This document shows, in pieces, positions 29,932-30,596 of a DNA stretch of 64,000 nt. Positions within the stretch are counted from its first letter, which is position 1. The number at the start of each line of letters is the position of its first letter. This stretch comes from Synechococcus sp. UW179A (GTDB lineage: Bacteria; Cyanobacteriota; Cyanobacteriia; PCC-6307; Cyanobiaceae). The notes beneath the pieces are model-generated. The model saw nothing but the letters and a program-made list of their open reading frames with translations, was not told where the DNA came from and made no database searches. Position numbers and translations under genes: made by a program. The DNA is taken from contig NZ_UCNJ01000032.1 in NCBI RefSeq assembly GCF_900473965.1, positions 248,001 to 312,000 on the forward strand. The letters are read 5' to 3'.

Positions 29932-29945
29932 GTATCAATGCGTAC
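29932..29945 (+). promoter_or_regulatory. NtcA-binding site (GTA-N8-TAC)
   Basis: GTATCAATGCGTAC is an exact match to the NtcA consensus GTA-N8-TAC. A -10-like TAATGG starts at 29970, 24 nt downstream, close to the 22-23 nt seen in class II NtcA promoters. The 75-aa ORF begins at 29998 and glnB at 30258, so this is the likely nitrogen-controlled promoter for both. Confidence 0.75.
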
Positions 29946-29997
29946 ATCCCCGAAAAGATCGGCGAGTCGTAATGGGGTTGTTGTGTGAAGCCCTTTC

Positions 29998-30225
29998 ATG
30001 GATCTCCGCTTGCTCGCCGAAGGCCCTTCCTTCCGGTTGGTGCCCGCCAGCGTTCATGGAATCCTCTGGCTTCAGACGCATTTCGAATCCGAGCACTGGG
30101 AGCTCCTCGCCGAAGGTCAAGTGATCGTGAGTCGGTCGGACGCGGAAACACTGATGCTTGACGCCTCCGAAGCCGGCCTGAGCTTGAATCCTCTTCCTTC
30201 CCTGTCCCCTACACAACACGCCTGA
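29998..30225 (+). CDS. Small hypothetical protein (75 aa) upstream of glnB
   Basis: Begins MDLRLLAEGPSFRLVPASVH and contains WLQTHFESEHWELLAEGQV; acidic overall, with no membrane segment or recognised domain. It lies between a canonical NtcA site and glnB (33-nt gap, same strand), so it is probably co-transcribed with PII under nitrogen control. No function can be assigned. The position makes it a candidate for PII- or NtcA-related signalling, but that is inference from context only. Confidence 0.72.
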   Translation: MDLRLLAEGPSFRLVPASVHGILWLQTHFESEHWELLAEGQVIVSRSDAETLMLDASEAGLSLNPLPSLSPTQHA

Positions 30226-30257
30226 GCTTTTAGCTTTCCCAAAGCCGGACACCAGCA

Positions 30258-30596
30258 ATGAAAAAAGTTGAAGCGATCATCCGCCCCTTCAAGCTTGAAG
30301 ACGTCAAGCTGGCCTTGGTGAACGCAGGAATCGTCGGGATGACCGTGAGCGAGGTCCGGGGTTTCGGGCGACAGAAAGGTCAGGTTGAGCGATACCGCGG
30401 ATCAGAATTCACAGTGGAATTCCTGCAGAAACTCAAGATCGAGGTGGTCATCGACGATGCTCGTGTTGACACCGTGGTCAACGCCATTGCAGAGGCCGCG
30501 AAGACCGGAGAGATCGGAGACGGCAAGATCTTCATCTCACCTGTTGACACCGTGGTGAGGATCCGTACAGGTGATCGCGACGGATCAGCTCTCTAA
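30258..30596 (+). CDS. glnB: Nitrogen regulatory protein PII
   Basis: A 112-aa trimeric sensor of 2-oxoglutarate and ATP/ADP that controls nitrogen and carbon metabolism. The full PII fold is present: N-terminus [18 protein letters not shown]-loop [15 protein letters not shown], and C-terminal [18 protein letters not shown]. Ser49, the phosphorylation site of freshwater cyanobacteria, is kept; residue 51, Tyr in many PII proteins, is Phe here. It lies downstream of the NtcA site and the 75-aa gene. Confidence 0.98.

Follow-up and report, generated by a model that had tools for sequence, protein, structure and literature searches.

A small-protein gene with an NtcA-type box beside glnB in Cyanobiaceae: a candidate partner of PII

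In this work, we describe a conserved gene for a 75-aa protein (ORF75) that lies directly upstream of glnB in Synechococcus sp. UW179A and appears to form with it a unit whose control by NtcA is well supported by the conservation of the promoter footprint and of the gene order. The locus lies in a stretch of 64,000 nucleotides (the window), and the evidence is read directly from sequence: the gene order, the conserved box and its spacing, purifying selection on ORF75, the recurrence of the gene at amt and urease loci and its linkage to a second PII gene. We propose that, when nitrogen is short, 2-oxoglutarate-loaded NtcA would bind the box at 29932 and activate one transcript carrying both ORF75 and glnB. 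The small folded protein made under these conditions would act together with PII; binding to PII itself, or to one of its targets (the ammonium transporter, for example), is the likeliest way for it to adjust nitrogen uptake or assimilation. When nitrogen is plentiful, a glutamine riboswitch would drive the DUF4278 protein encoded just upstream; with opposite signals for the two genes, there would thus be one small protein per nitrogen state beside the PII gene. To this reading as a whole, in which NtcA activates ORF75, whose product works with PII and has a glutamine-induced DUF4278 protein as its opposite, we give a probability of about 0.5, and a direct role of ORF75 with PII or a PII target may, taken by itself, be put at much the same level.

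The NtcA-type box and the ORF75-glnB unit

The unit is flanked by a divergent queF and a convergent tlyA, and the products of glnB and of the 71-aa gene match the P-II and DUF4278 domains well above the Pfam cut-offs (Table 1). The initial annotation had described an exact GTA-N8-TAC, a -10-like element 24 nt on, the 75-aa ORF and then glnB after 33 nt; all of this holds except the gap, which is 32 nt. The palindrome upstream of the riboswitch match has both half-sites intact in 12 of 16 aligned loci and recognisable in the remaining four, and with its odd spacing it departs from a standard NtcA box.

Table 1. Features of the glnB locus, with one RNA motif from elsewhere in the window
Feature	Position	Strand	Remarks
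ATPC RNA motif (Rfam RF01067)	18407-18501	-	66.1 bits
Palindrome TGTTCACTATGAACA	29528-29542	.	upstream of riboswitch match
Type 1 glutamine riboswitch aptamer-like RNA (RF01739)	29576-29650	+	25.1 bits, gathering 35, E 0.0025
DUF4278 gene, 71 aa	29712-29927	+	Pfam PF14105 E 5.8e-16, 59 bits, cut-off 25.3
NtcA box GTATCAATGCGTAC	29932-29945	.	exact GTA-N8-TAC
-10-like TAATGG	29970-29975	+	24 nt from box
ORF75, 75-aa acidic protein, pI 4.7, unnamed family	29998-30225	+	AlphaFold2 pLDDT 90.3
glnB, PII protein, 112 aa	30258-30596	+	Pfam PF00543 E 4.3e-32, 110.9 bits, cut-off 25

In one genome alone, the box motif is no better than chance. GTA-N8-TAC occurs twice in the window against 0.69 expected, a count reached in 17 of 100 shuffles, and across the whole genome GTA-N8-TAC-N20-26-TAAT is found 11 times, against 17 for the pattern read backwards. 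The significance of the box therefore rests on its conservation across 125 distinct sequences upstream of ORF75, 108 with glnB downstream and 17 without, which rules out the chance motif that the single-genome counts would fit. All 125 carry GT-N10-AC at -90 to -58 before ORF75, in a set where identical upstreams were merged, copies that came within 160 nt of the end of a locus were left out, many rows are close relatives and the interval was picked after inspection of the data. Counted in 12-nt bins, the motif falls 113 times in -68 to -57, 12 times in -80 to -69 and 0-7 times elsewhere. Roughly two fifths of the set have the strict GTA-N8-TAC, and [TC]AAT[AG]G stands exactly 24 nt past the box in 109 of the 125; the spacing itself seems to be conserved, since the intervening sequence varies. 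At NtcA-activated promoters, a -10 element TAN3T lies about 22 nt downstream of the box, and the activator box is centred near -41.5. TAATGG agrees with just the last four bases of TATAAT (its TAAT, with N22 spacing), and the sixth base of TAN3T is unmatched. With the box centred near -41.5, transcription would start near 29980.

The box seems to belong to ORF75, because all 17 copies away from glnB retain GT-N10-AC. When glnB stands without ORF75, it has its own GTA-N9-AC within 200 nt in 24 of 24 cases examined (26 genomes were chosen by hand, and in two of them ORF75 does adjoin glnB). From these two results, both genes are boxed independently, and the arrangement in the window is one shared box. 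The stretch 30000-30257, in which a separate glnB promoter would argue against the unit proposed in the initial annotation, held nothing against it: no second conserved NtcA box was found in ORF75 or in the ORF75-glnB spacer (scattered GT-N10-AC in 28 of 108 rows), and a scan of 29400-30650 for promoters of the sigma-70 type gave no match. Taken together with the box kept in every upstream sequence, the 24-nt spacing and the conserved gene order, these findings support the proposed unit; we consider it very probable that NtcA controls ORF75, and highly likely, with only slightly less confidence, that ORF75 and glnB are co-transcribed.

Adjacency could reflect shared regulation only, since glnB lacks a neighbouring ORF75 in 4 of 28 same-genus genomes and has its own box when unlinked. 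It is conceivable that ORF75 has an unrelated role in starvation and that glnB borrows its promoter, as joining two genes that both have NtcA-type boxes when apart costs nothing. Against this stand the persistence of the pair across Prochlorococcus and marine Synechococcus and its recurrence with a second PII, and we regard mere sharing of an operon as distinctly unlikely.

An inverted repeat around the -10-like element, significant at p<=0.05 in 25 of 125 copies (40 shuffles each) and weak in the window, has a stem score of at least 7 in 23 of 45 copies with an upstream DUF4278 gene vs 8 of 80 without (Fisher 7e-7), and is read as the terminator of the DUF4278 transcript. At one locus (L161, about 5217-5275, minus strand), a T-run hairpin with the -10-like element in its loop lies between box and ORF75, and the same type is seen in L131, L166, L167 and most of L281-L295; it seems to be a terminator overlapping the promoter. 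About 30-50 nt before glnB, whether ORF75 is there or not, stands CTGACACACT (L169-L173, and the ORF75-glnB spacer of L014-L024), with a CTGAGAGACT-like sequence at that place in other genera.

The published expression data that were found concern glnB and its product. The glnB mRNA of WH7803 is reported to rise about 2-fold in nitrogen starvation (PMC9430850), and a transcript table for marine Synechococcus shows glnB shifting the same way as nirA, amt and ntcA (PMC5063861). For the WH7803 PII protein under nitrogen stress, the results in PMC9430850 give no significant change, while its discussion also mentions a larger amount; in Prochlorococcus SS120 treated with azaserine, PII went down (PMC5451487). 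The absence of a clear rise of PII in these two proteomes counts against our reading with PII, as do the ORF75 copies at amt and urease loci that have no PII. How marine picocyanobacteria regulate glutamine synthetase is unclear according to a review (PMC6316151).

Distribution and properties of the ORF75 protein

Conservation of the ORF beside glnB, proposed as a test in the initial annotation, was found both within the genus and beyond it. A gene of the ORF75 family is present in 28 of 31 same-genus genomes (paralogues counted), and in 24 of the 28 with glnB the two genes adjoin. In a wider set, glnB lies 24-57 nt 3' of ORF75 in 80 of 82 loci, including WH7803 and many Prochlorococcus (82 of 84 were analysed, two other-strand loci being skipped; L065-L069 repeat five same-genus genomes). 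Among 300 Cyanobiaceae genomes, 204 match ORF75 (140 of the 197 good ones), and in a sample of the phylum 34 of 291 match, 33 of them in the window's own family, which we take to be Cyanobiaceae, and one a chance-like match with stops. As far as sampled, ORF75 is therefore confined to Cyanobiaceae; some genera lack it, which speaks against our reading. By genus majority, ORF75 occurs with one PII in 18 genera and with two in 5, and its absence goes with two PII in 7 and with one in 3 (Fisher 0.016, a test that ignores relatedness and is confounded with genome size). The association of ORF75 with a single PII could thus reflect genome size or relatedness.

Pairwise dN/dS of the gene between six close genomes is 0.07-0.44, which indicates purifying selection, and AlphaFold2 predicts a confident single domain (pLDDT 90.3, pTM 0.75) with strands at 3-8, 11-16, 42-45 and 63-66 and helices at 19-26, 31-38 and 46-58. 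Invariant in 66 aligned sequences are H20, G21, L23, W24, L25, Q26, T27, H28, F29, W34, L52, D55, A56 and G60; that the protein has a binding surface is plausible. ORF75 matched no Pfam or NCBIfam family at cut-off, nothing better than E 0.36 among the sequences of solved structures, no PDB fold at E<=0.001, and nothing in PADLOC at E<=0.1. Kinship with the fold of T4 UvsW (VIA-align Z 6.0, rmsd 5.7, 71 aligned) was set aside, and no fold relation is claimed, because a Z of 6.0 lies within the range of unrelated models. Matches to the PrlF antitoxin (E 0.1), to DUF5867 (best E 0.012, in 13 of 66 members) and to PHROG families (best E 0.03) were too weak for an identity. BFVD gave four matches with probability 1.00 and E about 0.005, three of them to uncharacterised proteins of uncultured Caudovirales. 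In the literature searched, no description, expression or binding of ORF75 was found, and an earlier mention is possible in Klahn 2018 and Tolonen 2006.

PipX, PirA and PirC/CfrA are likewise small cyanobacterial proteins tied to PII and to nitrogen signals (PMC7760959). Unlike them, ORF75 was, across the phylum sample, restricted to the family of the window, and its gene is often linked to PII genes; it matched no characterised family, the comparison having been made through family and structure searches rather than by direct alignment. NirP1 resembles ORF75 in its size (81 aa), its control by NtcA (very probable for ORF75) and its place in nitrogen metabolism, but it carries a Cys and three Trp that are absolutely conserved, and it is reported to be absent from Prochlorococcus (PMC10907346). 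ORF75 has no invariant Cys in the 66 aligned sequences, and Trp 24 and 34 are its only invariant Trp, which rules out membership of the NirP1 family. Moreover, nirP1 is described as repressed in nitrogen starvation (PMC10907346), whereas the box of ORF75 is at an activator position.

The upstream DUF4278 gene and a putative glutamine riboswitch

DUF4278 genes behind glutamine riboswitches are known (PMC6316151). According to that review, the DUF4278 proteins of picocyanobacteria have been likened to the N-terminal region of IF17, an inactivating factor of glutamine synthetase, these riboswitches activate expression when glutamine binds, and the motif had been linked earlier with PII and amt genes in environmental sequences (PMC6316151). 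The DUF4278 half of the window locus is this known arrangement (Klahn 2018, via PMC6316151). An NtcA-boxed small gene after DUF4278, which is present in some of these loci, goes unmentioned in the parts of the review concerned with them (PMC6316151). The locus suggests, beyond the initial annotation, that ORF75 may be one half of a two-signal unit with the riboswitch-linked DUF4278 gene upstream.

The RF01739 match in the window is the only one in this genome at E<=1; it contains the CGGAAGUAG core and CGAAG.AACGC, and its 25.1 bits are below the gathering threshold. RF01739 exceeds the cut-off in 9 of 31 same-genus genomes, with matches before glnB of up to 40.5 bits, and other relatives score about 27-35 bits at this place. 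The score alone would not convince, since 7 of 14 control genomes also match weakly at E<=1, one of them over the cut-off; we infer a functional riboswitch in this strain. Elsewhere in the window's genome (G000) there are five Glutamine-II riboswitches over the cut-off.

Of the 125 copies of ORF75, 45 have a DUF4278 gene within 480 nt upstream; 10 of these belong to the 17 away from glnB, and urease-type paralogues are among them. This recurrence and the opposite signals of the two genes are what one would expect if ORF75 were the counterpart of an IF17-related DUF4278 protein that acts at high glutamine, neutralising that protein or its target in low nitrogen, with PII just a co-regulated neighbour. 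The contrast in charge keeps the idea of an antagonist alive, although alone it is weak: the median pI is 4.97 for the ORF75 family (n=125, 4.05-8.89) and 8.82 for DUF4278 (n=43, 6.10-10.26), and the window pair has 4.7 and 10.0. Such a counterpart is nevertheless unlikely in our view, as ORF75 and its box persist in the 80 of 125 copies that have no upstream DUF4278, chiefly from Prochlorococcus and one group of marine Synechococcus. In addition, four same-genus genomes have DUF4278-glnB without ORF75 there, and ORF75 is absent from 29 of 30 loci with type 2 riboswitches (one locus per genome); as it is carried by 1 of these 30, ORF75 is no general follower of DUF4278.

Copies at other nitrogen loci and in phages

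The combination of riboswitch, DUF4278, box and ORF75-type gene is found again next to amt and at urease loci. The pair DUF4278-ORF75 and an ammonium transporter gene diverge from each other in 23 genomes, the majority chosen by hand (in one, L318, just the first part of amt is present at the contig end); the transporter of L166 matches Pfam PF00909. All four amt loci tested for the riboswitch (L131, L161, L166, L167) have it, at 27.3-35.9 bits. In a further set of loci, 19 of 19 ORF75 loci have some GT-N10-AC within 110 nt, and at the amt loci outside the 125 upstream sequences the boxes are looser, a point against our reading, mostly with GTT, GTG or GTC at the left and often CAATGG for TAATGG. 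In three genomes (G182, G241, G256), the gene directly after ORF75 encodes another PII that shares 48-51% identity with GlnB (for G182 and G241 the Pfam P-II match has E about 3e-27), and the nearest GT-N10-AC lies at -96 to -122; amt adjoins the pair in G182 and G241, and the contig of G256 ends before it. The loci L197, L198 and L297 have no ORF75, and in them a transporter gene with 76-83% identity to that of L166 faces a second PII. These loci recall the GlnK-Amt pairs, in which a PII gene likewise lies beside amt; ORF75 sits between amt-DUF4278 and PII in two genomes, whereas at most amt-linked loci read, among them those of the g10 and g25 genomes, ORF75 has no PII beside it. The simplest history, we infer, would be that a riboswitch-DUF4278-box-ORF75-PII unit once stood at both the glnB and the amt loci and lost parts by lineage.

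A clade of paralogues (100/99 support) includes the ORF75 copies of seven urease loci, where they lie beside ureC, with a class I amidotransferase (GATase) gene in 6 of 7. Several urease-type copies lie behind a Glutamine-II riboswitch and a DUF4278 ORF; no riboswitch was found at L155 (urease) or at L157 and L158 (non-urease copies), and no PII near urease-type copies within the stretches read. The 5' ureB small RNA (RF02514, >150 bits) has matches inside the ureC region of three urease loci (L149, L155, L156).

A scan of viral contigs yielded six ORF75 relatives among 20 pattern matches, of which L264 was discounted as a 17-residue match and L260 and L261 are nearly identical. On L262, hli, ORF75 and talC adjoin, with psbA about 1.2 kb upstream, and ORF75 on L259 neighbours genes for a phage-type clamp loader, a translation repressor, Hsp20 and purM; we take both contigs for cyanophage because of these neighbours. 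The origin of L263 is less certain, the one neighbour tested having no PHROG match. The phage copies group with Prochlorococcus-rich glnB-type sequences, and long branches and few columns leave the number of captures unsure. The phage copies showed no NtcA box upstream at its usual position. In records of isolated phages, neither the window ORF75 (E<=1) nor L262 (E<=10) had a match, and L259 and L260 had weak ones (best E 6 and 0.02); with the urease-type query, none of 13 viral stretches was a relative.

Since ORF75 adjoins amt in 23 genomes and ureC, usually together with GATase, in seven others, it could be a small effector acting without PII, directly on Amt, the urease-linked amidotransferase or another enzyme. 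Its presence on phage contigs would fit such an effector as well, since cyanophages are reported to carry the small regulator CP12 (PMC7760959). The two loci would then demand two different targets, and ORF75 is paired with two PII paralogues; a direct effector of this kind thus appears rather improbable. Returning to the reading that ORF75 works with PII, and to the small PII partner that the initial annotation thought plausible, any contact between the proteins would be an extrapolation from this repeated pairing. A bolder version holds that the family comprises dedicated starvation partners of PII and Amt in the most abundant phototrophs of the ocean, with the glutamine-induced DUF4278 protein as antagonist, that were captured by cyanophages to steer host nitrogen flow; we offer it tentatively, well short of even odds.

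ORF75 is a concrete candidate regulator: it is conserved, has a box of the NtcA type and is linked to two PII paralogues and to amt and urease loci, and its presence on phage contigs suggests that it can matter during infection. If the bolder version is true, a single locus would translate a pair of contrary signals into small proteins of opposing action, encoded next to the sensor on which they act. The box of the nitrogen-switch type, the adjacency to PII and the viral copies point to an overlooked regulator of nitrogen use in ocean cyanobacteria.
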